A stretch of DNA of 64,000 bases from Kribbella sp. NBC_01245 (lineage in GTDB: Bacteria; Actinomycetota; Actinomycetes; Propionibacteriales; Kribbellaceae). The notes beneath the pieces are model-generated. The model was not told where the DNA came from, did not search any database, and saw only the letters and a list, made by a program, of their open reading frames with translations. Positions 11,282 through 58,731 of this stretch are shown piece by piece; the first letter of the stretch is position 1, and the number at the start of each line of letters is the position of its first letter. Made by a program: the position numbers and the translations under genes. The DNA lies in contig NZ_CP108487.1 of the NCBI RefSeq assembly GCF_036226525.1, positions 3,038,001 through 3,102,000 of the forward strand, read 5' to 3'.

Positions 11282-13033
11282 TTACTTGTAGACGCGGACG
11301 TAGTCGACGAGCATCCGCGCGGGGAACGGCGTACTGGCGTTGGGCGGGCCCGGCCAGTCACCACCGACCGCAAGGTTGAAGATGATGTAGAACGGGTGGT
11401 CGAAGACCCACGGACCACGAGTCGCCTCTACCTGGGCCTTGTCGATCGTGAAGACAGTGCGGCCGTCAAGCGTGTAGACGATGCCTTTGCTGTTCCAGGT
11501 CGCCGCCCAGGTGTGGAAGTCGTCGGAGAAGTCCGCGCCGTTGGGCAGCGTGTAGGACCCACCGATGCCGCCACCACCGTTGTACGCCGGGGCGTGCACG
11601 GTCGAGTACGCCGTCTTCACGTCCTTGCCGAGCACCTCGAGGATGTCGATCTCGCCGTTGTACGGCCACGGGCGTCCGGTCAGGAAGTCCGCACCCATCA
11701 TCCAGAAGGCGGGCCACAAGCCGGCGCCCTTCGGGATCTTCACGCGGGCCTCAATCTTGCCGTACGTGGTGTGGAACTTGTTGCCGGTGTTCATCCGGTG
11801 TGACGTGTACTGGCAGGTGCCGCTGCCGGTCAGCGGATCGATCGGACAAGTCGAACCGGGGGTGACCTCCTTGCGGGCCTCCATCACCAGGTTGCCGCCG
11901 CCGTCCATCGAGGCGTTGTTGTTGTTCGTGTAGTACTCGAGCTCGTTGTTCGGCCCGGTGCCCGGGTCGATCGTCCACTTGGCCGCGTCGGGCTTGGCGC
12001 CGGCCGGACCGTTGAACTCGTCACTCCACACCAGCGTCACCGGCGGGTCGGCCGGATCGGCGGGCGGCGTCGGCGGCGTGTTCGGTGCACCACCAGTGCC
12101 GTAGACGTCGAATGCCCACAGCGAATAGCCGTACGGCGTGTTGCGCTGCGTGCCGTACATCCGGACATAGCGGCCCGTGCCGGTGATGTTCAACGTCTCC
12201 TTGAACCCGGGCCCCGCGGTGGTGCCGTAGATGCGGCTCCAGTTCACGGCGTCGTTCGAGACCTGGATCTCGTACGACTTGGCGGACGCGGGATCCCACT
12301 GCAGCACGACCTTGTCGATCTGCGCGGTGGCACCGAGGTCGACGTAGATCCAGCCCGGGTCGACCCAGCCGGAGTCCGTCGCGGTGGCCCAGCGACTGGC
12401 GGGGTCAAGGTCGAACGCGCGTGCCGGGGTGCACTCCCAGCAGTTCGAGTCGTGCTGCTGGGTCGAGGCGACGCCGGTCTTGTTGTACGACAGCAGCTTG
12501 CTGCCCGGACCGGGGTCGGGATCGCCGCCGGTGGTGCCGAAGACCTTGAACTCCCAGAGCGAATATCCCCATTGGGTGGCGCGCTCCGTGCCGTACATCC
12601 GGACATAGCGACCGGATCCGGTGACGTTCAGGGTCTGCTCGCCACCCGCGCCGGTGGTGGTCGAGTAGATCGGCGTCCAGTCGCTGCCGTTGGACGAGGT
12701 CTGGACCTGGAAGGCGCGAGCAAACGCTCCCTCCCAGCTCAGCACGACCTGGTTGATGGTGGCCGACTGGCCGAGGTCGATCTGGATCCACTGGGGGTCC
12801 GCGAAGGCGCTCGACCAGCGGGTGCCAGGGTCGCCGTCGACTGCCGCGGCGGCGGTGAACACCGCGTTCTCGGTGGACGAGGCGGTGGCGGTTTTGCCTT
12901 GTGAGAGCAGGATGTCGGCCGCGCCGGCCGACTGTGGAACGGAGAAGAGGGCCGCGACCAGGCCGGCGGCGAGAGTGAACAGGATGCCCGCACGCAGACG
13001 TTCAGGGCGTGCGGGACTACGAGACGAACGCAT
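11282..13033 (-). CDS. secreted GH16 beta-glucanase with two discoidin domains
   Basis: A 583-residue secreted enzyme. Order: signal peptide ending near SAGAAD, discoidin domain 1 (about 40-175), discoidin domain 2 (about 185-320), a Pro-rich linker, and a C-terminal glycoside hydrolase family 16 domain (about 335-583). The catalytic signature GEIDILE (460-466) supplies nucleophile E461, D463 and acid/base E466; this non-bulged form fits laminarinase/beta-1,3-glucanase. The start at ATG 13033 has AGGAG about 6 nt upstream. The LacI gene is divergent and a palindrome overlaps the leader, so control by that repressor is likely. Confidence 0.93.
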   Translation of the reverse strand: MRSSRSPARPERLRAGILFTLAAGLVAALFSVPQSAGAADILLSQGKTATASSTENAVFTAAAAVDGDPGTRWSSAFADPQWIQIDLGQSATINQVVLSWEGAFARAFQVQTSSNGSDWTPIYSTTTGAGGEQTLNVTGSGRYVRMYGTERATQWGYSLWEFKVFGTTGGDPDPGPGSKLLSYNKTGVASTQQHDSNCWECTPARAFDLDPASRWATATDSGWVDPGWIYVDLGATAQIDKVVLQWDPASAKSYEIQVSNDAVNWSRIYGTTAGPGFKETLNITGTGRYVRMYGTQRNTPYGYSLWAFDVYGTGGAPNTPPTPPADPADPPVTLVWSDEFNGPAGAKPDAAKWTIDPGTGPNNELEYYTNNNNASMDGGGNLVMEARKEVTPGSTCPIDPLTGSGTCQYTSHRMNTGNKFHTTYGKIEARVKIPKGAGLWPAFWMMGADFLTGRPWPYNGEIDILEVLGKDVKTAYSTVHAPAYNGGGGIGGSYTLPNGADFSDDFHTWAATWNSKGIVYTLDGRTVFTIDKAQVEATRGPWVFDHPFYIIFNLAVGGDWPGPPNASTPFPARMLVDYVRVYK

Positions 13034-13067
13034 GGCATCTCCTGGTGGGCGGTGCGGAAAATAGCCG

Positions 13068-13079
13068 GGGAACGTTCCC
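13068..13079. promoter_or_regulatory. LacI-type operator upstream of GH16
   Basis: A perfect 12-bp palindrome, GGGAACGTTCCC, lies 35 bp upstream of the glucanase start codon, in the leader or promoter. It resembles the CebR-type operator (TGGGAGCGCTCCCA) of cello-oligosaccharide repressors and is matched by a second site at 13202-13215 next to the lacI gene. Confidence 0.7.
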
Positions 13080-13201
13080 TGAGGTGAGCGTGCTGGTCCC
13101 GTCACCCGGTGTCAAGACCTCGGCCGAAACCTGCTCGTAACTTGCGTTGGCGTTCAGAGCCGACCACTTGACGGTCGTACCCGTCAGGACCGATGCTCTT
13201 C

Positions 13202-13215
13202 GGGGAACGCTCCCC
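13202..13215. promoter_or_regulatory. LacI-type operator upstream of the regulator gene
   Basis: A palindromic GGGGAACGCTCCCC, 31 bp before the lacI GTG start, differs from the GH16 operator at one central base. Two near-identical palindromes about 134 bp apart in one divergent intergenic region suggest joint repression and autoregulation, possibly through a loop. Confidence 0.7.
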
Positions 13216-13246
13216 ATTGTTCGACTCGAGCCACGGAGGCCACGAC

Positions 13247-14239
13247 GTGAGACGGCCCACCCTGCATGCGGTCGCGGCCCGGGCCGGTGTCTCTAAGTCG
13301 AGCGTGTCCCGGGTGATCAACGGCGAGCCGACCGTCGCGCCGGAGATTCGCCAGATCGTGCTGCGGGCGGTGAACGAACTCGGCTATGTGCCGAACAGCG
13401 CGGCCCGCAACCTCGTCACCCAGCGGACCAACACGATAGCGATCATCGTCTCCGATCCCCCGGCCGGTCTCGTCTCGGATGACCCGATGTTCGCGATGGT
13501 CGTCCGCGCGGCGAGCCGGGCGCTGGAGGCGGCCGGCAAGCAGGTCGCGCTGGTGCTGGCCGGGTCGCCGGAGAGCCGGTTGCGCGTCGAGCAGTACGTC
13601 GCGGCCGGGCACGTCGATGGCGCGATGCTGGTCTCGATGGATGGCGCCGATCCGTTGCCGGCGATGCTGGCGCGGACGGGGATTCCGGTGGTGTCGCATG
13701 GCCGGTTGGCGAACGACCTGATGCCGTGGGTGGACAACGACAACGTCGGCGGCGCCACGCAAGCCGTACAGCACCTGCTCGAGCGTGGGCGGCAGCGGAT
13801 CGCGACGATCTCCGGGCCGTTGGATATGCCCGCGGCACAGGAACGGCTGGCGGCTTACCGAAATACGTTGAAGGACACCGGGCGTCGGTCGATCGTTGCC
13901 TTGGGCGACTTCACGCGGATCTCCGGCGCCGAGGCGATGCGCCAGCTCCTGGACGACGATCCGGATTTGGACGCGGTCTTCGCCGCGAACGACCTGATGG
14001 CGATCGGCGCGCTACGAACGCTTCGCGAGGCCGGCCGCCGTGTGCCCGACGACGTGGCCGTGGTCGGCTTCGACGATATCGAGGCGGCCTCCTACACGGC
14101 GCCTCCGTTGACGACCGTCCGCAGCCCGATGGGCGATCAGGCCACCCAAACGGTTCAGCTCCTCCTGAACCTCTTCAAGACCGGCACGGCCGACCCGGTC
14201 GTGCTCCCTACCGAGGTCATCATCCGCGAATCCACCTAG
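13247..14239 (+). CDS. LacI-family transcriptional repressor
   Basis: A 330-residue sugar-responsive repressor. The N-terminal LacI helix-turn-helix with hinge is clear (TLHAVAARAGVSKSSVSRV, NELGYVPNSAARNL), followed by a periplasmic-binding-protein-like sensor with the family end VVGFDDIEAASYTAPPLTTV. GTG 13247 is preceded by GGAGG with 7-nt spacing; longer in-frame versions overlap the operator and are unlikely. It probably represses the divergent GH16 gene and itself and responds to a beta-glucan breakdown product (inferred). Confidence 0.92.
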   Translation: MRRPTLHAVAARAGVSKSSVSRVINGEPTVAPEIRQIVLRAVNELGYVPNSAARNLVTQRTNTIAIIVSDPPAGLVSDDPMFAMVVRAASRALEAAGKQVALVLAGSPESRLRVEQYVAAGHVDGAMLVSMDGADPLPAMLARTGIPVVSHGRLANDLMPWVDNDNVGGATQAVQHLLERGRQRIATISGPLDMPAAQERLAAYRNTLKDTGRRSIVALGDFTRISGAEAMRQLLDDDPDLDAVFAANDLMAIGALRTLREAGRRVPDDVAVVGFDDIEAASYTAPPLTTVRSPMGDQATQTVQLLLNLFKTGTADPVVLPTEVIIREST

Positions 14240-14246
14240 CCGCCCG

Positions 14247-15620
14247 TCAACCGCGCGGGATGCCGCCGGCCCGCAGGATGAGGTCCCGTACGTCGGTGGG
14301 GGCGACCGCGGCACCCGCTTCCAGCAGCGCGGGGTCTGAGACGAGCAGTACGGGTCCGTCTTCGGGAGACGCGGGCAAAAGTCCATGGGACCCACGCACT
14401 ATCGACGGATCGACCGGTACGACCGACATCGCGTACCTCAGGCCGAGCTTCTTCTTCACCAGGTACGACGCCGCCCGTGGTTTGACGAATCTGTCCGCCG
14501 GATCGAAGAACAGCTCGGCCGGGTCATAGCCGGGCTTGCGATGGATCTCCACGCCGCGCGCGAAGTCCGGCGCGTTGGCGTCATCCAGCCAGTAGTAGTA
14601 CGTGAACCAGGCATCCCGTTCGGCCAGCGCCACCAACTCGCCCGCCCGCTCGTGGTCGAGGCCGAACCGTTCCTTGCCCTCGGCATCGAGCACCTCCCCC
14701 ACACCCGATAGCCCGCGAAGCAGGTCCGCCGCCTTCTCCACGTCGGCCGGATCCTGCACGTACACCTGGGCAACCTGATGATCCGCCACCGCGAACGCCC
14801 GCGACGCCCACGGATCGAGATACTCCATTCCGTCCTGGACGTACACCTCCAGCAGTCCCTCACGCCGGAGCAACCGATTGATGTCGATCGGACGCGACAC
14901 ATCCGTGATCCCGTATTCGGACAACACGATCACCGTCGCGCCCGCTCTGGTGGCATCGTCCAGCAACGGCCCGAGGACCGCGTCCAACTCCGCCGCCGCC
15001 TTCACCGCCTGCGCCGACGAAGCGCCGTACCGCTGCAGGTCATAGTCCAAATGCGGCACGTAGGTGAGCAGCAGATCGGGGTTGTCCTCGGCAAGGATTT
15101 GGCGCGACGCGGCAACGATCCACTGACTCGACCGGATACTTGCCGTCGGCCCCCAATAGTGGAACAGCGGGAAGTCCCCAAGACGAGACGTCAATCGGTC
15201 GTGCAGTTCCTTCGGCCGGGTGTAGCAATCCGGCGCCTTCCGCCCATCGGCGTAGTAGATCGGCCGAGGTGTCACCAGCAGATCCGTCTCGGCACCCATC
15301 GCATACCACCAGCAGACGTTCGCCACCTTGTACGACGGATTCGTCCGGCGCGCGATGTCCCAGACCTTCTCCCCCTGGACGAGTCGGTTGTGCTGGCGCC
15401 AGAGGAAGACCTCACCGAGATCGCGGAAGTACCATCCGTTCCCCACGATTCCGTGGTCACGCGGAACCAACCCGGTCAGGAAGGTCGCCTGCGCCGAACA
15501 CGTCACGGCCGGCAACACCGCACCCAACGCGCGAGTCTCGCCAACCCGGCGCAACCGCGGCATGTGCTCGAGCAGGCGAGGTGTCAACCCGACGACGTCG
15601 ATGACCACTACCTGGTTCAT
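14247..15620 (-). CDS. EboF-like phosphodiesterase / nucleotide pyrophosphatase family protein
   Basis: A 457-residue protein of the alkaline-phosphatase superfamily (type I phosphodiesterase/NPP branch). Seen: first metal Asp in VVVIDVVG, nucleophile Thr in PAVTCSAQATFLTG (near residue 40), the metal motif YVPHLDYDLQRYG and ADHQ late in the chain; the usual SDHGM is replaced by SEYGITD. No signal peptide. It is the last gene of the eight-gene operon and matches the position and family of EboF in ebo clusters. A natural substrate could be a phospho-linked head group (inferred). ATGA overlap with the preceding gene. Confidence 0.8.
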   Translation of the reverse strand: MNQVVVIDVVGLTPRLLEHMPRLRRVGETRALGAVLPAVTCSAQATFLTGLVPRDHGIVGNGWYFRDLGEVFLWRQHNRLVQGEKVWDIARRTNPSYKVANVCWWYAMGAETDLLVTPRPIYYADGRKAPDCYTRPKELHDRLTSRLGDFPLFHYWGPTASIRSSQWIVAASRQILAEDNPDLLLTYVPHLDYDLQRYGASSAQAVKAAAELDAVLGPLLDDATRAGATVIVLSEYGITDVSRPIDINRLLRREGLLEVYVQDGMEYLDPWASRAFAVADHQVAQVYVQDPADVEKAADLLRGLSGVGEVLDAEGKERFGLDHERAGELVALAERDAWFTYYYWLDDANAPDFARGVEIHRKPGYDPAELFFDPADRFVKPRAASYLVKKKLGLRYAMSVVPVDPSIVRGSHGLLPASPEDGPVLLVSDPALLEAGAAVAPTDVRDLILRAGGIPRG

Positions 15621-16777
15621 GCGACGACCTCCAGTCCGAGCGAGACCAGGCGGTCGCGCAACCAGCTGAGCTCACCGGCGATACCAGCGGCCAGTTCCTC
15701 GACGTCGCGCGGCCGCTGCGCCTTCGGCAACACCGACCAGGTGTACGTCTCCGACTCGAGGTGATGCGTGCGCGGCGTTGCCCCACCGACGAGCTCTCGC
15801 AACGACGCGTCCAGCACGTCGGTGGTGCTACGCAGCGGCGCAAGTGGTTCCGCATGAACCGGCACATGGAAGTGCACCCGCCAGGCCTCGTCCACCGGCA
15901 ACTCCGCCGCGAGCGACAAGTCGTCCACACCCTCCAGGCCGGCCGATCGCGTCTGATGCAGGAACTTCGGCTCCGCGAACTCCGCCAGCAACGCGCGGCT
16001 CGCGGGATCGCCTGGATCGTCGATCTGCAAGGCCGCCGAGACCTGGCTCTTCACCACTGGCACTCCCGCCGCGGCAAGCCCGCGAAAGGCGTCCGCCGGG
16101 TCCTCGAACTGGACCGCGAGATGACACGTGTCAACGCACACCCCGATCCGCGCCCGCGCCGCCGCGCCGTACGGGCTGAGCCAGTCGGCGGCCTGCGCGA
16201 CGGTCTCGACGATGCACCCGGGCTCGGGTTCGAGCGCGACCCGGATCCGCCGGCCGGTACGTTCCTCCAGCCGCGCGAGATCGTTGCCCAGGGCACCGAT
16301 TGCCGTACGTGCGAGGGCGTCCCGGTCGCCGTACCAAGGGGTGCGCCAACCGAGCGGCAGCGTCGAGATCGAGCCGTACGACGCGTCCGCGGGCAGGAGT
16401 TGTGCGAGCACCTCGGCCAGTCGGCGGGTGTATTCCAGTCGCTCGGGCTGGGACCAGTCCGGCAGGTAGACCTTCTTGCCGACGACCTCGTCGTGGAAAC
16501 CGGCGTACGGGAAACCGTTCAGGGTGACGACCTCGAGCCCGTTCCGGTCGAGCGCCGCGCGGAGCCTCGTGAGGGCCTCGGGGGACGAGGCGAGTTGGGC
16601 CGCGAGGGCGTGTGCCAGCCAGAGGCCGACGCCGAGAACCGGTACGTCGAGGCGTTTGCGGACGAGCGCGGCACAACCGTCGAGCTGTGCGATCACTCCG
16701 TCGAGGTCTTCGGCGGGATGCACGTTGGTGCAGTAGGCGAGATGCACGATCGACCCGTCCGGGTGGCGGAACCTCAC
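15617..16777 (-). CDS. EboE-like TIM-barrel (xylose-isomerase fold) protein
   Basis: A 386-residue protein that opens with HLAYCTNVHPAEDLDGVIAQ, the characteristic start of the EboE family, and continues as an AP-endonuclease-2/xylose-isomerase TIM barrel. Candidate metal ligands include EPEPGC, VCVDTCHLAVQFED and HFHVPVH. EboE is annotated as a metabolite-traffic protein because it sits in clusters needed to move a pigment precursor out of cyanobacterial cells; no reaction is proven. The GTG start 16777 overlaps the upstream stop (GTGA). Confidence 0.8.
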   Translation of the reverse strand: MRFRHPDGSIVHLAYCTNVHPAEDLDGVIAQLDGCAALVRKRLDVPVLGVGLWLAHALAAQLASSPEALTRLRAALDRNGLEVVTLNGFPYAGFHDEVVGKKVYLPDWSQPERLEYTRRLAEVLAQLLPADASYGSISTLPLGWRTPWYGDRDALARTAIGALGNDLARLEERTGRRIRVALEPEPGCIVETVAQAADWLSPYGAAARARIGVCVDTCHLAVQFEDPADAFRGLAAAGVPVVKSQVSAALQIDDPGDPASRALLAEFAEPKFLHQTRSAGLEGVDDLSLAAELPVDEAWRVHFHVPVHAEPLAPLRSTTDVLDASLRELVGGATPRTHHLESETYTWSVLPKAQRPRDVEELAAGIAGELSWLRDRLVSLGLEVVA

Positions 16778-17628
16778 GGCCGCGCTCCGCGCAGAATCGA
16801 GTTCCCCGCGAACGTGGCGTCGCCGTCTGGTTGAGAGCCGAGTTCGAGGCGTCCGGATTGGGCGTAGAAGTCGACCGGGTTCTGCCAGAGCACCCGGTCG
16901 ACGTCCGCGGCGGTGAACCCGGCCGCGAGCATCGCCTCGCCGGTCCGGTAGGTCAGCAGGGGATCGGACTTTCCCCAGTCCGCGGCGGAGTTGACCAGCA
17001 TCCGCTCGGTGCCGAACGTCCGCAGGATCGCCACCATCCGATCCGGGTCCATCTTGGTATCGGGATAGATCGAAAACCCAAGCCAGCAACCGGAATCGGC
17101 GACCTCTTTGACCGTCACCTCGTTCAGGTGATCGACGAGGACCATGGCCGGATCAAGCCCTGACTCCCGTACGACGGCCAGGGTTCGCGTGGTGCCGACG
17201 GCCTTGTCGCGGTGTGGGGTGTGCACGAGGACGGGCAGTTCGAAGCGTTTGGCCAGTTCGAGTTGGGCCGCGAAGACCTCGTCCTCCGCCGGCGTCATCG
17301 AGTCGTACCCGACCTCCCCGACCGCGACGACTCCGTCCTTCGCCAGGTAACGCGGCAGCACGTCGAGTACCTCCCGGCAGCGCGGATCGTTCGCCTCCTT
17401 CGGGTTGAGCGCGATCGTGCAGTGGTGGGCGATGCCGAACTGCGAGGCGCGGAACGGCTCCCAACCGATCAGCGCGTCGAAGTAGTCGACGAACGAGCCG
17501 ACACTCGTGCGCGGTTGTCCCAGCCAGAACGACGGCTCCACCAGCGCGCGAACGCCGTGCGCGAACATCGCCGCGTAGTCGTCGGTGGTGCGCGAGGTCA
17601 TATGGATATGCGGGTCGAAGATGCGCAT
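16774..17628 (-). CDS. EboB-like TatD-family metal hydrolase
   Basis: A 284-residue amidohydrolase-fold protein. Metal-site motifs: FDPHIHM at the N-terminus (residues 4-10), GEVGYDS, LVHTPH, LVDHLNE and NSAADWG, matching the TatD arrangement. In ebo clusters this place is held by EboB. TatD proteins are nucleases or hydrolases, but the ebo members' substrate is unknown. It is translationally coupled on both sides (TGATG overlap with eboA upstream, GTGA with eboE downstream). Confidence 0.82.
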   Translation of the reverse strand: MRIFDPHIHMTSRTTDDYAAMFAHGVRALVEPSFWLGQPRTSVGSFVDYFDALIGWEPFRASQFGIAHHCTIALNPKEANDPRCREVLDVLPRYLAKDGVVAVGEVGYDSMTPAEDEVFAAQLELAKRFELPVLVHTPHRDKAVGTTRTLAVVRESGLDPAMVLVDHLNEVTVKEVADSGCWLGFSIYPDTKMDPDRMVAILRTFGTERMLVNSAADWGKSDPLLTYRTGEAMLAAGFTAADVDRVLWQNPVDFYAQSGRLELGSQPDGDATFAGNSILRGARP

Positions 17629-18356
17629 CAGGCCGTCCTCAGATAGGGCTGCAGGTCAGCCGGAACGTCCCGTCCGGCCGCCGTTCGCTCAGCGGCGAAA
17701 TCAGTCATCATCCGGATGAGCTCATCATCCGAACGTGCGGGCAAACCGTCCACGGCACTCAGCGGCACCCCGGCGAAGACGCACTTCAGCACCGCCTGCC
17801 GAAACCCCGCCGCCTCGAGATACCGCGTCGCGTACGGCCCCAGCGCCGCCGCGAGCAACCGCTGGTCGTTCGTCCGAATCGCGTCCGCCACCAACGGCAC
17901 ACCCCGATCGCCCAGCGCCTCCGCGACCTCCCGAACCCCCAACGCCTTCAAAACCGCCCGCTTCTCCCCCGCATCCCCATACCGATAAACCCCGCCCAAG
18001 GCCGCCACGAACTCGTCCCCGCTCAACACCCCCACCAACCCCGCCACCAACACTCCCCGCGCCACCTCATCCACCCCCCACCCCGCCACCAGATTCCGTT
18101 CATCGGGCCCTTGTGACACGGCGTGTTGCGCTTCATCGGACCCTTCTGACCAACTGGTCCGCTCGCCGTTAGATCCGGTGGGAGCGTGCAGCGGACCTCG
18201 GCCGACCTTGCGCCCGACGGCTGGGAAGGCGGCCGCGAGTAACTCCGGCCGTCCCCGCTGCGCCGCGAGCCACGCGGACTCCGGGAGCATCGCACTCAAG
18301 TACCGAGCCGTGAGCACGAACGCCCCCGGCCGCTCGCCAGAACTCCAGGCCGTCAT
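17628..18356 (-). CDS. EboA-domain protein carrying an in-frame repeat insertion
   Basis: A 242-residue helical protein of the EboA family, whose function is unknown. The conserved part runs from WGVDEVARGVLVAGL to the C-terminus, with the motif GGVYRYGDAGEKRAVLKAL and a late CVFAGVPLSAVDGL. Between the N-terminal part (MLPESAWLAAQRGRPELLAA) and this region, about 30 residues (GSNGERTSW...SQGPDERN) are encoded by the 33-bp repeat at 18100-18150 and its flank. The frame stays open, so a product could still be made with an extra loop. ATG 18356 overlaps the upstream stop (ATGA). Confidence 0.78.
   Translation of the reverse strand: MTAWSSGERPGAFVLTARYLSAMLPESAWLAAQRGRPELLAAAFPAVGRKVGRGPLHAPTGSNGERTSWSEGSDEAQHAVSQGPDERNLVAGWGVDEVARGVLVAGLVGVLSGDEFVAALGGVYRYGDAGEKRAVLKALGVREVAEALGDRGVPLVADAIRTNDQRLLAAALGPYATRYLEAAGFRQAVLKCVFAGVPLSAVDGLPARSDDELIRMMTDFAAERTAAGRDVPADLQPYLRTA
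18100..18150. repeat. 33-bp-period repeat, two units, inside eboA (locus B)
   Basis: Two 18-bp cores (TCATCGGGCCCTTGTGAC at 18100-18117 and a close variant at 18133-18150) are spaced 33 bp apart, with the linker ACGGCGTGTTGCGCT. The unit is the same as the intergenic loci at 1514-1597 and 32446-32528. Because 33 is a multiple of three, the array does not shift the eboA frame. Confidence 0.85.
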
Positions 18357-19243
18357 GAAGCGGCCGCGCGGAGGAAGTCGATGGATTGCTGGGCGACGAC
18401 CGGCGCCGCATGCGAGTGCCTGGGCAGTTCGACCGCGACCAGACCGGCATACCCGGCGTCCCGCAGGGCGCGCAGAACGGGCGGGAAGTCGACTTCGCCG
18501 GTGCCGAATTCCAGGTGCTCGTGTACGCCGCGGCGCATGTCGTCGATCTGGACGTTGACCAGGTACGGCGCTGCCAACGCGACGCATTCGGATGGCGGCA
18601 TCATCTCGTTGCAGCGCAGATGACCGATATCCAGCGTCAGTCCGAGCGGTTGGACCTCGGCTTGGAGCTTGAGGTATCCCGCGAGATCGTCGACGAGCAT
18701 GCCCGGTTCGGGCTCGAAGCCGAGCGGGACCTGCCGCGCCTCGGCGTACGTCGCGATCTCGGCGCATCCCGCGACCAATCGCGACCAGCCGACGTCGGGT
18801 GAGACGCCGGGCGGGAGCGTGCCTGACCAGAACGAGACCGCTTCCGCACCGAGTACCGCCGCGATGTCGACAGCCCTTTGCAGCAAGGCGATCCGCCGTT
18901 CGGCGCCATCCGTATGCAGCAGCGTCGGCTCGTGCTTGCGCCTCGGGTCCAGGACGTAGCGCCCGCCGGTCTCGATCACGACGGCCAGGTCGTACCGCGC
19001 GAGCACTCGCGCCACCTCCGCCGTACGGGCGGGCAGGTCCGGGCCGAACGGGTCGAGGTGGTTGTGGTCGAGCGTGAGCGCCACCCCGACGTATCCGAGC
19101 TCCGCGATCACGGCGAGCGCCTCGGACAGCCGGTGGTTGGCGAATCCGTTGGTGCCATAACCGAATCGCAAGGACGTGCCCTCCGACTCCCCAGGTCCGG
19201 CTTCAGCGGGCGACTCCACCGGTCCGGCTTCGGCGGCCGTCAT
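18353..19243 (-). CDS. sugar phosphate isomerase/epimerase-like TIM barrel (operon gene 4)
   Basis: A 296-residue xylose-isomerase-like TIM barrel: opening LRFGYGTNGFANHRLSEAL, metal or substrate residues in ALTLDHNHLDPF, GFEPEPGML, LTLDIGHLRCNE and VAVELPRHSH. An acidic, Pro/Glu-rich N-terminal tail of about 22 residues precedes the fold. The EPEPG motif is shared with the EboE-like neighbour, so the two probably handle related substrates. ATG 19243 overlaps the UbiA stop (ATGA). The reaction is unknown. Confidence 0.82.
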   Translation of the reverse strand: MTAAEAGPVESPAEAGPGESEGTSLRFGYGTNGFANHRLSEALAVIAELGYVGVALTLDHNHLDPFGPDLPARTAEVARVLARYDLAVVIETGGRYVLDPRRKHEPTLLHTDGAERRIALLQRAVDIAAVLGAEAVSFWSGTLPPGVSPDVGWSRLVAGCAEIATYAEARQVPLGFEPEPGMLVDDLAGYLKLQAEVQPLGLTLDIGHLRCNEMMPPSECVALAAPYLVNVQIDDMRRGVHEHLEFGTGEVDFPPVLRALRDAGYAGLVAVELPRHSHAAPVVAQQSIDFLRAAAS

Positions 19244-20145
19244 GTCGGCGAGATCTTCCGCGCCAATGCCCGGGCCAACGGCAAGGCCGCGACCAGGCCC
19301 AGTCCGACTCGGGACGCGCCGTTGCGGGCGCACCACGCGGCCTGCAACGGGACCAGCCCGTGGATTCCCGATGCGACGGCCATTCGGATGTTCAGACCAT
19401 CCGGTTGCTGGGCGGCAGTCCACTGCGCCGGTCCGACCGCTCGCGCGAACAACCCGGCGAGTCCAGCGGCGATCAGGCCATCGCGAAGTCCGGCGCCGCC
19501 GAGACCGGTCACCCCGCGCAAACCGGGAGTGCCGCGTAGGCCGGTCGCGGCAGGTAGGGCGGTGGCGGCGGTGATCAGGGAGGTAGCGGCCAGGGCGGTT
19601 CGCGCGGGGTGTGGCGTACCGCCGTGGACTTCGTTGCGGGACATCAGGGTTACGCCGAGGATGTGGGTGCCGACGACTAGGGCCGGGGCCCAGGCTCGCC
19701 TTCGGGACGAACCCGCTCCGACCAGTACGTCGAGGGAGCGGGCGGTGGCCATGAGGAAGGGACCGGCCGGGGTGTTCTTGCCGCCGAGGTCGTAGGCCCA
19801 GGCCGTGGCGGCGAGAGCGGTTGACGTACGGAAGGTCGCCGAGCCTCCGGCCGCGCGCGCCAGGCCCAGGCCGGCGGCGGTGAGGCCACTCGCCAGTACG
19901 AGCGCGACACTGGCCGATACGCGGCCGGAGGGGATCGGGCGGTCGGGGCGTTCGATCGCGTCGACGTCGCGATCAGCCCAGTCGTTCAGGGCCATGCCGG
20001 CCCAGTAGATGCAGACCGAGGACGCCGCCAGCCCGATCACCCGGCCGGCCCGAAGGTTGCCCGAGGCAACGGCACCCGCCAGCACATCCCCAGGCACGGT
20101 CAATGCCGCCGGCGCCCGAACCAATTCCGCAAGCACCCGGATCAT
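19240..20145 (-). CDS. UbiA-family prenyltransferase (EboC-like, SCO3242 family)
   Basis: A 301-residue integral membrane prenyltransferase. The first Asp-rich motif is NDWADRDVDAIERPDRPIP (from residue 54) and the second is YDLGGKNTPAGPFLMATARS. Several hydrophobic helices fit the UbiA fold. It transfers a prenyl group from a diphosphate donor to an acceptor inside the membrane; here the acceptor may be the cyclitol made by the upstream cyclase (inference). It corresponds to EboC. Its ATG lies in a duplicated copy of the preceding gene's 3' end. Confidence 0.87.
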   Translation of the reverse strand: MIRVLAELVRAPAALTVPGDVLAGAVASGNLRAGRVIGLAASSVCIYWAGMALNDWADRDVDAIERPDRPIPSGRVSASVALVLASGLTAAGLGLARAAGGSATFRTSTALAATAWAYDLGGKNTPAGPFLMATARSLDVLVGAGSSRRRAWAPALVVGTHILGVTLMSRNEVHGGTPHPARTALAATSLITAATALPAATGLRGTPGLRGVTGLGGAGLRDGLIAAGLAGLFARAVGPAQWTAAQQPDGLNIRMAVASGIHGLVPLQAAWCARNGASRVGLGLVAALPLARALARKISPT

Positions 20146-20235
20146 GGTCGGGTCCAGGTCACGAAGACGCGCGCCATGGTCGCGTCCATCCGACGCGATG
20201 CGCGGGTCATGGGTGGGTCCAGGTGACGAGGGTGT
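20142..20235. repeat. short tandem duplication between INO1-like and UbiA genes
   Basis: About 27 bp around 20143-20170 (TCATGGTCGGGTCCAGGTCA...) recur with a few changes at 20208-20235, a 65-bp offset. Both copies carry ATGA on the minus strand: one is the INO1-like stop, the other the UbiA start. The simplest history is an ancestral ATGA overlap of the two genes split by a 65-bp duplication, explaining the only real gap in the operon. Confidence 0.65.
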
Positions 20236-21340
20236 CGTATTGGCGGGCTAGGGAGTGTTCGCGGGAGCCGAGGGGGTCTTTGAAGAAGAAGCCGAGGAAC
20301 GGCATTGGGCCGGTGTGGGCGCGTTCTAGGGCTAGGCCGGAGAGGCGGGCGAGGTCTAGGACGAGCGGTGCCGCTAGGGCTGAATCGCAGCCTTGCCAGG
20401 TGAATTGCAGGGTCATGCGGGTGCCGAGGAAACCTGAGAAGGCGATGTGGTCCCAGGCCGTCTTCCAGTCGCCCATCGGCGGTACGTAGTCGATGTGTAC
20501 TTCGCCGGCGATGTCGGGGCCGAGCAGATCCGCGACGACCTTCTCCTTGGTGAGGCTCTTCGATCGCGCCGCGTCGGGGTCGGCCAGGGTGGCGCCGTCG
20601 CCGCCGCCTAGCAGGTTGGTGCCGGACCACGCATGCACCTGCAAGGCACGCGCGGCGAACATTGGCGCGAGTACGCTCTTCACCAGGGTCTCGCCGGTCT
20701 TCGCGTCCTGTCCGCCGTACGGTAGGCCGCGCTCGATCGCCCATTGCTGTACGGCGGGGAGGCGGATCGAGTTCGACGGCGTGAAGTCCACGAACGCGGC
20801 ACCGGCTTCGAAGGCGGCCAGCGCGGCGACGGAACTTGCCGGCAGCAACGATTCACCATCGCTCAAGCAACTACGCAAGGCAGCGAGATCGTGGTGAGCG
20901 GGATGGGCGGGGCAGGGTGGTTCGGTGGATGCGACGTTGATCGCGACCACTCGCGCCAGTTGGTGTCGCTCGGCGAACGCGCGGATGTCTGTCGCCATCA
21001 AGCCAACCTGCTCAAGCTGGCATGAGGCTGACGGGAGGAGCACCAGATCGTGCTCGATGTCGAGGTCGACTAGAGCCGGGATGCCGGCTGGGATGACGCC
21101 GCCTTCCACCAGACGTTCGAGCTGCTTGGCCAAAGGCGTGTCGACCACATCGTGACCACCGAAGACCAGACCGTCGATCGGCACCAGGCCCGCGTCGGCG
21201 AAATCCGGCAACTCCGTCACCACGCCAACTGGAGGAAGGCCGTGGCGCAAGGCGGCCGCGCCAGCGATCGTCGTACTCCCGACTGAACCTCTAGCCCCGA
21301 ACAGCCAAACCCCCAAGCGACTACCAGGCACGGCTGCCAC
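20207..21340 (-). CDS. inositol-3-phosphate-synthase-family cyclase (ebo-cluster type)
   Basis: A 377-residue protein of the myo-inositol-1-phosphate synthase family, which cyclises glucose 6-phosphate with NAD. Seen: N-terminal Rossmann motif LFGARGSVGSTT, NVASTE, FTPSNSIRLP, the catalytic-core GGQDAKTGETLVKSVLAPMF and NLLGGGDG. It differs clearly from the standard actinobacterial Ino1 used for mycothiol and phosphatidylinositol, so it is probably a pathway-specific paralogue. In other ebo clusters this place is taken by the sugar-phosphate cyclase-like EboD (3-dehydroquinate synthase family). Confidence 0.82.
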   Translation of the reverse strand: MAAVPGSRLGVWLFGARGSVGSTTIAGAAALRHGLPPVGVVTELPDFADAGLVPIDGLVFGGHDVVDTPLAKQLERLVEGGVIPAGIPALVDLDIEHDLVLLPSASCQLEQVGLMATDIRAFAERHQLARVVAINVASTEPPCPAHPAHHDLAALRSCLSDGESLLPASSVAALAAFEAGAAFVDFTPSNSIRLPAVQQWAIERGLPYGGQDAKTGETLVKSVLAPMFAARALQVHAWSGTNLLGGGDGATLADPDAARSKSLTKEKVVADLLGPDIAGEVHIDYVPPMGDWKTAWDHIAFSGFLGTRMTLQFTWQGCDSALAAPLVLDLARLSGLALERAHTGPMPFLGFFFKDPLGSREHSLARQYDTLVTWTHP

Positions 21341-21345
21341 GGCCG

Positions 21346-22293
21346 TCAGCCCCGCAACTCGCGGATCGCGCGATAGCTGCGCGCGGCCGGACCAAAAGAC
21401 CCGGGCGGATCGGGCAACGAGCCGGGGGCGTTGTCCTGCTCCCAGATGCCGTGGTGCATCCCTCGCGCCTGCAAGGACTTGAGGAAACTACGGAACGGCA
21501 GATCTCCCGCACCGAACTCCACGATGTCGTAGCCGTTCGGGTTGGCCGGGTTGGCGTTGCCGTCCTTGAGATGGAACAACGGGTACCGATGCGGCTGCGC
21601 CTTCACGTAGTCGATCGGCTCGAACCCGGGAAACCGGTGCTTTCCGACGTACGCCCAGTAGATGTCCATTTCCAGGTACACGTACCGGCGATCGGTCTCA
21701 GCCAGCAGTACGTCGTACAGGCGAACAGAGGGATCGTCGGCGGCGAAGCCGAACTCGTCGGAGTGGTTGTGGTGGTACCACTTCAGGCATCTCGCCGCCG
21801 CGGCCTGGCCGAACCGGTTGAACTCCGCGGCAGCCTCCCGATACCCGGCGACCGTTCTCTTGTCCGCAGTGACCGGCTCGTTGGCCGTGCCGATGTACGG
21901 CGTCCCGAGGATCTCGGCCCGATCCAGTTCGAGTTCGAGATTCGCGCGGAACGCCGAGAGGCCGACGTGGCTGCCGACCGCGCGCAGACCGTTGTCGTCG
22001 AGCAGCCGGCGGATCTCTGGCACAGTGATCGGACCGACCGAGCCCTGGCCGTACCCGGCGAACTCGACCTCGCAATAGCCGATCCGCGAGAGCTCCTCGA
22101 ACACCCGGCGAAAACCGATCCGGGCCACCTGGTCCCGGATCGAGTAGAGCTGGATGCCGGTCTTACCCGCCGGAATCAGTGGCCCACCAGCGGCCGAGGC
22201 GACCGGTGTGTCGAGGGCGCCGGACAGAGTGCTCGCACTGACCGCGACCGTCGCACCCGAGGCGACCGTGCGGAGGAAGGCGCGTCTATTCAT
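21346..22293 (-). CDS. Tat-exported sugar phosphate isomerase/epimerase-like TIM barrel (operon gene 1)
   Basis: A 315-residue protein with a twin-arginine signal (MNRRAFLRTVASGATVAV, cleavage near VASAAGG) and a xylose-isomerase-like barrel: GIQLYSIRDQV, EVEFAGYGQ, WYHHNHSDEFG, YLEMDIYWAYV and LFHLKDGNAN provide candidate metal ligands (E, D, H, D). It is first in the operon and the only member predicted to be exported folded, which implies that part of the pathway, or a substrate, lies outside the membrane. The next gene starts 5 bp after its stop. Confidence 0.85.
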   Translation of the reverse strand: MNRRAFLRTVASGATVAVSASTLSGALDTPVASAAGGPLIPAGKTGIQLYSIRDQVARIGFRRVFEELSRIGYCEVEFAGYGQGSVGPITVPEIRRLLDDNGLRAVGSHVGLSAFRANLELELDRAEILGTPYIGTANEPVTADKRTVAGYREAAAEFNRFGQAAAARCLKWYHHNHSDEFGFAADDPSVRLYDVLLAETDRRYVYLEMDIYWAYVGKHRFPGFEPIDYVKAQPHRYPLFHLKDGNANPANPNGYDIVEFGAGDLPFRSFLKSLQARGMHHGIWEQDNAPGSLPDPPGSFGPAARSYRAIRELRG

Positions 22294-58090: not shown

Positions 58091-58731
58091 CGGCTCGCCC
58101 ACAGCAGGCCTCGCTCGATCATCGTGCGGACCTCGGGCACGTCCAGGTCCTCCAGGCTGTGCCCGGGAGTGCAGACGAAGATGCGGCCCTCGCCCCAGGT
58201 GCGGGTCCAGACCGCGGGCATGGTCGCGCCCTCGATCCACGGGTAGTCCGGGTGACCGCGGAAGGTGGTGGTGGCCAGCACGTTGTTGGTCGGGTCGGCG
58301 TGCACGTAGTACTGCTCGGTGTGCAGGTCGAAATGCGTCAGTCCCTCGACGATCGGGTGATCCGCGACGATCTGGATCTCGTGGTCGACGAACCCGCCGG
58401 GGTGCGAGATGAACTGGCCGCCGGTGATGAACTGGTAGTCGGTGTTGTCGCGGAACGAGTCCACGATGCCGCCGTGCCAACCGGCGAATCCGGTGCCGCC
58501 CCGGATCGCGGTCTCGAGGCCCTTGCACTGCTCGGCGGTGATCTCGCCCATGCTGATGCACTGCAGCACCAGATCGGTGCCGGCCAGGTCGAGATAGGCG
58601 TCCAGGTCGTCGGTCACCTCGACGGCGAACCCGTTCTCCTTCAGGTACGGCGTGAACAGCTCGGTCGCTTCCTGCGGCTTGTGCCCTGGCCAACCGCCCC
58701 AGACCACGAGGGCTCGTCGTTCTGCGGTCAC
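58087..58731 (-). CDS. ThuA-domain protein
   Basis: A 214-residue class-I-glutamine-amidotransferase-like protein of the ThuA family: RALVVWGGWPGHKPQEA, FAGWHGG, QFISHPGG and WTRTWGEGRIFVCTPGHSLEDL are hallmarks. ThuA proteins act in trehalose-type sugar or glycoside breakdown beside Gfo/Idh oxidoreductases, as here. GTG 58731 has GAGGA about 8 nt upstream; longer starts run into the divergent promoter. Confidence 0.88.
   Translation of the reverse strand: MTAERRALVVWGGWPGHKPQEATELFTPYLKENGFAVEVTDDLDAYLDLAGTDLVLQCISMGEITAEQCKGLETAIRGGTGFAGWHGGIVDSFRDNTDYQFITGGQFISHPGGFVDHEIQIVADHPIVEGLTHFDLHTEQYYVHADPTNNVLATTTFRGHPDYPWIEGATMPAVWTRTWGEGRIFVCTPGHSLEDLDVPEVRTMIERGLLWASR

Follow-up and report, generated by a model that had tools for sequence, protein, structure and literature searches.

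A 64,000-nucleotide stretch of Kribbella sp. NBC_01245 (positions 3,038,001–3,102,000 of the 8.68 Mb single-contig genome; hereafter the window) carries an ebo-type operon in which a myo-inositol phosphate synthase (MIPS)-family cyclase stands in the place of EboD. Clusters of the ebo type are needed for scytonemin export and nematode resistance. The operon is a new form of this known, widespread but unexplained system; a MIPS version of the ebo cluster was not found in searches of an open-access library (subscription papers and preprints lie outside that scope). The conserved unit comprises seven genes, MIPS, UbiA, TIM2, EboA, TatD/EboB, EboE and EboF, in which TIM2 is a TIM barrel that accompanies the MIPS. 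The original prediction, made from the window sequence, had recognized the exchange of MIPS for EboD but did not connect the additional TIM barrel with it.

Replacement of EboD by an inositol phosphate synthase

The comparison covers 94 actinobacterial loci of at least 10 kb: 14 found with EboE among 296 genomes of the phylum, 75 found with MIPS, and five on plasmids. The MIPS-found loci come from the top 80 among at least 494 relatives of the operon MIPS, the nearest of which are mostly from Kribbella; 75 were kept at the length threshold, and L040, L049, L059, L063 and L064, all under 10 kb, were left out. Because these 75 loci were fetched with MIPS itself, its presence in them is by construction and the EboE-seeded count is the unbiased figure. 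The EboE-seeded sets comprise the 14 of 296 genomes and 48 plasmid records, of which 10 of 16 non-actinobacterial and 5 of 32 actinobacterial records were read; the EboE, TatD and EboF profiles used may hold EboD-type seeds.

Several lines of evidence show that the exchange of MIPS for EboD is real. First, in the EboE-seeded sample (the window and L019–L032) 13 of the 15 loci contain MIPS and not one contains EboD. Of the two exceptions, the MIPS-less cluster L020 shares its genome with a second locus that has MIPS (L021), and L032 is a broken cluster in a genome with two MIPS-family genes elsewhere. Second, EboD is absent from all 94 actinobacterial loci. Third, a profile built from eight EboDs finds no EboD-level match among 14 actinobacterial cluster-bearing genomes; the best match per genome scores 142–197 bits, mostly near 150, compared with 485–740 bits for nine EboD-type loci under a similar four-row profile. 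These matches fit AroB-type enzymes, with a 197-bit full-length cyclase in G150 left unassigned, and the idea that EboD simply sits elsewhere in the genome was rejected on these scores. A true EboD, which would have spoken against the original prediction, was thus found neither beside the MIPS in the 94 loci nor, at EboD-level scores, elsewhere in the 14 genomes. Fourth, 9 of the 10 non-actinobacterial plasmid clusters have EboD without MIPS, and the tenth, from Gemmatirosa kalamazoonensis (Gemmatimonadota), has MIPS and TIM2 without EboD; no DHQ-synthase domain was found on its 1.04 Mb plasmid, to which that search was confined. In the loci examined, MIPS and EboD are therefore mutually exclusive. 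In the MIPS-less cluster L020, a flavin amine-oxidase-like gene (11915–13333) lies upstream of UbiA.

The two cyclases belong to different families (PF07994/PF01658 for MIPS, PF01761 for EboD), and the exchange is therefore a replacement by an unrelated enzyme. MIPS forms a C6 ring and keeps the phosphate. EboD has been proposed to use the C7 substrate sedoheptulose 7-phosphate with loss of the phosphate, in an account by Yurchenko et al. (PMC5133447). With unrelated families, different ring sizes and different fates of the phosphate, one common product does not simply follow, and the argument of the original prediction from cyclase kinship to a shared product does not hold as stated.

Operon organization and conserved core

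Eight minus-strand genes occupy window positions 14247–22293. All had been predicted, with overlapping or nearly touching ends, and all are confirmed by family matches:

21346–22293, minus strand: Tat-type signal (RRAFLR, by eye) and xylose-isomerase-like TIM barrel, here Tat-TIM (PF01261, 35.6 bits)
20207–21340, minus strand: MIPS-family cyclase, apparently of archaeal type, GTG start, in the place of EboD (PF07994, 147.8 bits; PF01658, 116 bits)
19240–20145, minus strand: UbiA-superfamily prenyltransferase, SCO3242 family, EboC-like (NF045897, 348.6 bits, cut-off 260)
18353–19243, minus strand: TIM2, xylose-isomerase-like TIM barrel, partner of MIPS (PF01261, 133 bits)
17628–18356, minus strand: EboA-domain protein, helical repeat (NF035938, 154 bits, cut-off 50)
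16774–17628, minus strand: TatD-like metal-dependent hydrolase in the EboB position (PF01026, 53 bits)
15617–16777, minus strand: EboE, xylose-isomerase-like TIM barrel, GTG start (NF035939, 431.9 bits, cut-off 250)
14247–15620, minus strand: EboF-like protein with an NPP/phosphonoacetate-hydrolase fold (PF01663, 206.4 bits)

The MIPS domains are NAD_binding_5 and Inos-1-P_synth, and both xylose-isomerase-like barrels toward the upstream end, Tat-TIM and TIM2, are AP_endonuc_2 proteins. The NCBIfam names are 'SCO3242 family prenyltransferase' for the UbiA protein and 'metabolite traffic protein EboE' for the product of 15617–16777. The five junctions from UbiA to EboF overlap by 4, 4, 1, 4 and 4 bases; gaps of 5 and 61 bases separate Tat-TIM from MIPS and MIPS from UbiA.

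The operon had been described as an eight-gene unit; all eight genes are present in the window, but the conserved unit has seven. A Tat-TIM homologue of at least 250 bits occurs in 23 of 94 loci at varying positions, and is therefore called accessory: it abuts MIPS in the window, lies just upstream of MIPS in L029 and L031, is downstream of EboF in L021–L025, and among Kribbella-type loci with enough flank occurs only in L038, ~4 kb upstream. All seven core genes lie within the fetched stretch in 74 of the 94 loci, and the order MIPS-UbiA-TIM2-EboA-TatD-EboE-EboF is retained across many genera. The 20 misses include loci cut by contig or locus ends, Planotetraspora and Sphaerisporangium loci in which a long open frame separates TatD from EboE, and four loci of Herbidospora whose UbiA, TIM2 and EboF are encoded elsewhere in the genome. 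In L047 the TatD/EboE interval contains a 1939-residue open frame inside the operon (14157–19973) with ThuA, GSDH, PKD and CBM6 domains; similarly long gaps occur in L045, L070, L073, L082 and L088, the domain scan being of L047. TIM2 and EboA are joined in one open frame in L030, L050 and L105, and hybrids of this type in Actinobacteria are mentioned by Yurchenko et al. (PMC5133447).

As described in two accounts of the ebo/EDB cluster (PMC5133447, PMC6282210), the known form, with six genes (eboA–F), likewise has an EboA domain, a TatD-like EboB, a UbiA protein of the EboC subfamily and EboE in a tight operon. Its EboF shares the altered ligand positions discussed below. The known form differs in having EboD, whereas the present form has MIPS and TIM2, a UbiA protein of the SCO3242 subfamily and the order MIPS-C-TIM2-A-B-E-F.

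The operon MIPS is not the housekeeping Ino1

The window genome encodes a second, canonical Ino1 elsewhere (697.6 bits with TIGR03450, the mycothiol-type INO1 model, cut-off 638). The operon MIPS is 29% identical to it over 199 residues and scores 38 bits with that model, far below the cut-off. Two MIPS genes are present in 13 of the 14 cluster-bearing genomes; in the other, G268 (locus L019), the operon MIPS is the only MIPS-family match. The concern that accompanied the original prediction, that the operon MIPS might be the only Ino1, was accordingly rejected for the window genome and for all of the 14 except G268.

The closest solved structure is the A. fulgidus MIPS (1u1i, 202 bits), while 1gr0, presumably the M. 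tuberculosis-type enzyme, is distant (41 bits). The equivalents of A. fulgidus K274, K278, K306, K367 and N255, and the aspartates D248 and D319, are identical in 99 of 99 sequences, among them those of the window and Gemmatirosa. With the help of point-mutant structure entries, we take these residues to be catalytic; the window MIPS shares them with the archaeal enzyme. Judged by its best solved match and these positions, the operon MIPS looks CATALYTICALLY complete. The NCBI annotation of the cluster MIPS is inositol-3-phosphate synthase. To our knowledge, the archaeal MIPS of A. fulgidus has not been described as part of a prenyltransferase operon.

Prenyltransferase, TIM2 and isoprenoid supply

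UbiA enzymes usually carry two Asp-rich motifs. In the cluster enzymes the first, NDxxDxxxD, is retained (N54, D55, D58 and D62 in at least 97% of 90 rows); the site of the second, aligned by eye, mostly reads (S/A)(R/K)xE in both cluster types, with E172 conserved. Most rows of both types also share Y(D/N)xxxK, and these common motifs fit a single subfamily for the UbiA proteins of MIPS-type and EboD-type clusters. For the window UbiA the EboC model NF035940 comes second, at 141.1 bits and below its cut-off of 250. The SCO3242 family model (NF045897) fits it, and the S. coelicolor side of that family is known from its name and from the listing of SCO3242 and SCO3243 with the CDA cluster, where SCO3243 is listed as a myo-inositol phosphate synthase (PMC3610822). 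Ubi-297, an EboC-type UbiA of an ebo cluster that differs in coming from EboD-type clusters, is reported to have farnesylated 6 of 14 aromatic acceptors in vitro, quinolines best (PMC9235831).

Genes of the methylerythritol phosphate pathway and/or a polyprenyl diphosphate synthase are present at 10 of 94 loci and at none of 20 controls (20-kb stretches drawn from five of these genomes). They include IspD, the synthase, IspH, IspG and DXS in Nonomuraea typhae (L062); IspH, IspG, DXS and the synthase in S. acidiscabies (L074); DXS, IspG and an IspH-synthase fusion in Actinacidiphila bryophytorum (L089); DXS alone in L111; and the synthase alone in L019, L026, L031, L099, L101 and L104. Such isoprenoid-supply neighbours suggest prenylation.

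TIM2 has conserved Glu, Asp and His columns in 85 rows and does not occur in the EboD-type loci that were read. The phosphate is kept by MIPS but presumably expelled by EboD-type cyclases, and TIM2 may therefore account for the equivalence of the MIPS and EboD modules.

EboA, the TatD-like hydrolase and EboF

The window EboA misses the EboA_family model NF035937 (74.1 bits, cut-off 320). It models as a helical, HEAT-like protein: the AlphaFold model (pLDDT 86.5) is all helical, with a best VIA-align Z of 9.7 (rmsd 3.8 over 163 residues) and no Foldseek match at E <0.001. Across 101 rows of the TatD-like protein, His, Glu and Asp columns are conserved, and one profile, whose seed may hold both kinds, finds this protein in MIPS- and EboD-type loci.

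The fold of EboF is that of NPP enzymes (Foldseek E 1.4e-20 to Xac NPP) and is similar to phosphonoacetate hydrolase; T40, D192 and H412 are retained. The positions aligned to the His, Asp and His of phosphonoacetate hydrolase that we take to be metal ligands are Q196, E235 and Y236. E235 and Y236 are present in 88 of 88 EboF sequences of both cluster types, nine EboD-type clusters included, and Q196 in at least 97% of rows; D8 is Asp in 52 of 88. Beyond these 88, the Halocatena EboF also has the SEYG motif, and the Halobaculum EboF is without any match to S(E/D)(Y/H)G. A normal two-metal mechanism thus looks unlikely from the residues present, and EboF may be either a binding protein or an enzyme of a non-canonical kind. 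The predicted 'EboF-like phosphodiesterase' holds for the fold but not for the metal ligands, which are replaced; an ordinary phosphodiesterase is not to be assumed, and the word serves as a fold label. One published analysis takes EboF to hydrolyse a substrate that contains phosphate (PMC5133447).

Mixing of cyclase and backbone beyond actinobacteria

The Gemmatirosa MIPS and TIM2 are 43% and 52% identical to those of the window. In unrooted trees of 37 rows (27 actinobacterial, nine EboD-type and Gemmatirosa, with haloarchaea not included), the Gemmatirosa EboE and EboF group with the nine EboD-type rows and its TatD with the two EboD-type rows of Deinococcus, all three separate from the actinobacterial rows. 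Two cyclase changes are needed in each of the EboE, TatD and EboF trees, the last a quick one. A single change is found in none of 200 bootstrap trees for EboE or for TatD, the TatD bootstrap not having settled. When strongly supported branches alone are considered, two changes are forced for TatD and EboF and only one for EboE. In Gemmatirosa, MIPS is thus combined with a backbone related to EboD-type clusters, so that exchange or recombination has mixed cyclase and backbone on at least one occasion. A 126-residue stretch before the Gemmatirosa TatD was considered as an EboG fusion and rejected, as it showed no similarity.

The Gemmatirosa MIPS matches 64 plasmid records, from which 11 further regions were read; a weaker Halorussus match is not among them. 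The haloarchaeal plasmid MIPS are 44–50% identical to it. Three of five haloarchaeal loci (Halobaculum, Halocatena and Natronococcus; L156, L157 and L171) have MIPS, EboF, TatD, UbiA and two TIM2-like barrels; EboA was not found in these three clusters, and EboE above its cut-off was not found in the two haloarchaeal records searched. The two Halomarina loci have MIPS alone. Two haloarchaeal UbiA proteins score 180–186 bits with the SCO3242-type profile and 93–99 bits with the EboC profile, scores that are not strictly comparable, as the EboC profile has four rows and the UbiA profile many more seeds. MIPS with a TIM2 relative (272–351 bits) and no UbiA occurs in Hymenobacter, Roseomonas and two Methylobacterium (L159, L160, L161 and L170); TIM2 is missing from two other bacterial loci with MIPS (L162 and L169). 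MIPS and TIM2 recur with and without UbiA, and the pair therefore looks like a portable cyclitol module used in the place of EboD. Cyclase exchange appears, from these comparisons, to have occurred more than once. The two annotated UbiA-less MIPS-TIM2 loci also hold YcaO and Gfo/Idh/MocA genes; the UbiA-less clusters constitute another unexplained inositol-type pathway.

Proposed function and alternatives

The best reading is an ebo variant that makes a prenylated, inositol-derived lipid, which we consider to have about an even chance of being correct. From the gene content, linkage, cyclase exclusivity, active-site conservation and neighbours observed, we infer every reaction that follows, as well as the product and its role. 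The cyclitol-forming step would be carried out by the archaeal-type MIPS and TIM2 instead of EboD, with MIPS converting glucose 6-phosphate to inositol phosphate. TIM2, EboE and the TatD-like hydrolase would remodel the ring, and UbiA would attach a prenyl chain from a prenyl diphosphate. EboA could serve as a helical scaffold, and EboF could bind a phosphorylated intermediate, or act on it by means other than the usual two-metal site. The product would be a membrane-bound prenylated cyclitol-derived lipid that serves a process at the outer face of the membrane, comparable to the use of the Nostoc ebo cluster for the scytonemin monomer. The prenylated-cyclitol proposal of the original prediction is thus plausible and testable, not proven. 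For EboD-type ebo clusters, an isoprenoid-cyclitol idea was put forward by Yurchenko et al. in 2016 (PMC5133447).

Several observations weigh against this reading. A MIPS relative (6k96) makes a five-membered ring, so the product of the operon MIPS cannot be assumed. In G268, which has only the operon MIPS, that enzyme may therefore also supply ordinary inositol. No isoprenoid genes lie at 84 of the 94 loci, and Thermomonospora L043 has the cluster but no SCO3242-type UbiA in its genome (best 26.9 bits). No cyclitol acceptor has been demonstrated for EboC-type enzymes, and in the assays reported Ubi-297 prenylated no phenols or catechols (PMC9235831). The eboD gene itself is not among the deletions described in the Nostoc study (PMC6282210). 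Finally, no GSDH or ThuA gene lies near the window operon, the nearest being a ThuA gene at window 58096–58716; the window genome has 6 ThuA and 9 GSDH match rows.

Elsewhere, such sugar-processing genes are common neighbours. GSDH, ThuA or 3-keto-disaccharide-hydrolase proteins are encoded at 48 of 94 loci and at 0 of 20 controls, and in 25 of 48 groups when loci are pooled by genus (labels typed from the record titles of the MIPS-found loci, with each locus lacking a label counted as its own group). In Natronococcus (L171) the genes after the cluster encode a TIM barrel and a GSDH protein (11562–14225), the latter with a plastocyanin-type copper domain at its C terminus. ScyD/E-like proteins are found at 9 of 94 loci, and three Streptomyces plasmids (L118, L126 and L127) have ScyD/ScyE-like proteins and multicopper oxidases beside the MIPS-type cluster. 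Together, the GSDH/ThuA, copper-domain and ScyD/E neighbours point to the outer face of the membrane and to a carrier or redox lipid, which suggests an extracytoplasmic role for the product. The neighbours on the three Streptomyces plasmids recall the scytonemin locus.

The same neighbours would fit a different product, in which the cyclitol is dehydrated to a hydroquinone-like aromatic ring and prenylated; extracytoplasmic oxidases and sugar dehydrogenases would use it as an electron carrier or cofactor, and it would not be a carrier for export. Of nine EboD-type clusters one (Salipiger L120) has a PQQ dehydrogenase next to it, which agrees with this, as does the prenylation of aromatic rings by the characterised EboC-type enzyme (PMC9235831). 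A precedent is the BE-40644 pathway, in which a sugar-phosphate cyclase and ring dehydration are reported to precede farnesylation by a UbiA-superfamily enzyme; it differs in that its cyclase is a C7 DHQS-type enzyme and its UbiA enzyme is not an EboC (PMC5133447). However, dehydratase activity has been demonstrated for no Ebo protein, the failure of Ubi-297 with phenols and catechols counts here too, the Nostoc monomer stays in the cytoplasm, which is a better fit to transport, and many loci, the window included, are without these neighbours. We consider a redox lipid an unlikely product. Comparably improbable is a broader extension, that the ebo family as a whole makes shikimate-independent prenylated redox lipids on a sugar-derived ring, with two unrelated ring modules feeding one downstream enzyme set; the lipid would then be an electron carrier or cofactor for extracytoplasmic oxidases and sugar dehydrogenases in actinobacteria and haloarchaea, with the EboD form in many other bacteria.

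Two further alternatives are each quite doubtful. In one, UbiA would link the prenyl chain to inositol phosphate through a hydroxyl group, in the manner of DGGGP synthase on a glycerol phosphate, to give an inositol-headed, archaeal-style ether lipid. The archaeal-type MIPS and the clusters in haloarchaea are compatible with this; published work groups EboC close to DGGGP synthases (PMC6282210), and the three solved structures matched by UbiA include a DGGGP synthase (24.5 bits; chlorophyll synthase scores higher, at 29.4 bits). These scores are weak, the ring-modifying enzymes are hard to place in such a pathway, and the characterised EboC-type enzyme prenylated a quinoline ring (PMC9235831). 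In the other, the genes would constitute a sugar-utilisation operon or the tailoring genes of an adjacent natural-product cluster, as sugar-type ABC binding proteins (17 of 94 loci), Gfo/Idh/MocA enzymes (20 of 94) and the CDA listing of SCO3242 and SCO3243 (PMC3610822) might suggest; but MIPS with a prenyltransferase is a poor fit to catabolism, and the neighbours vary by genus while the seven core genes stay together. That MIPS is in the operon by chance and merely supplies inositol phosphate for phosphatidylinositol and mycothiol is very improbable: its complete active site and its sole status in G268 would allow it, but the canonical Ino1 of the window genome, the two MIPS genes in 13 of 14 genomes, the gene order kept across many genera and the exclusivity with EboD all speak against it.

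For the prenylated cyclitol lipid, the exchange of the ring-forming enzyme for one with a well-understood reaction provides a handle on the ring and should make the product easier to find: labelled inositol or glucose could expose a prenylated inositol derivative. S. coelicolor, a tractable host, should carry the variant, given the family name and the SCO3242/SCO3243 listing. The exchange also predicts that MIPS and TIM2 can replace EboD functionally.

Minor features of the window operon

Within window 20145–20224, the 61-base MIPS/UbiA spacer ends in 21 bases that repeat the end of the MIPS gene (18 of the 21 match, by eye), as would be expected had an ATGA overlap been opened by a short duplication; Tandem Repeats Finder (TRF) reported no tandem repeat at this junction. 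A LacI-like regulator (by eye) is encoded at window 13193–14239, convergent with the end of the operon.

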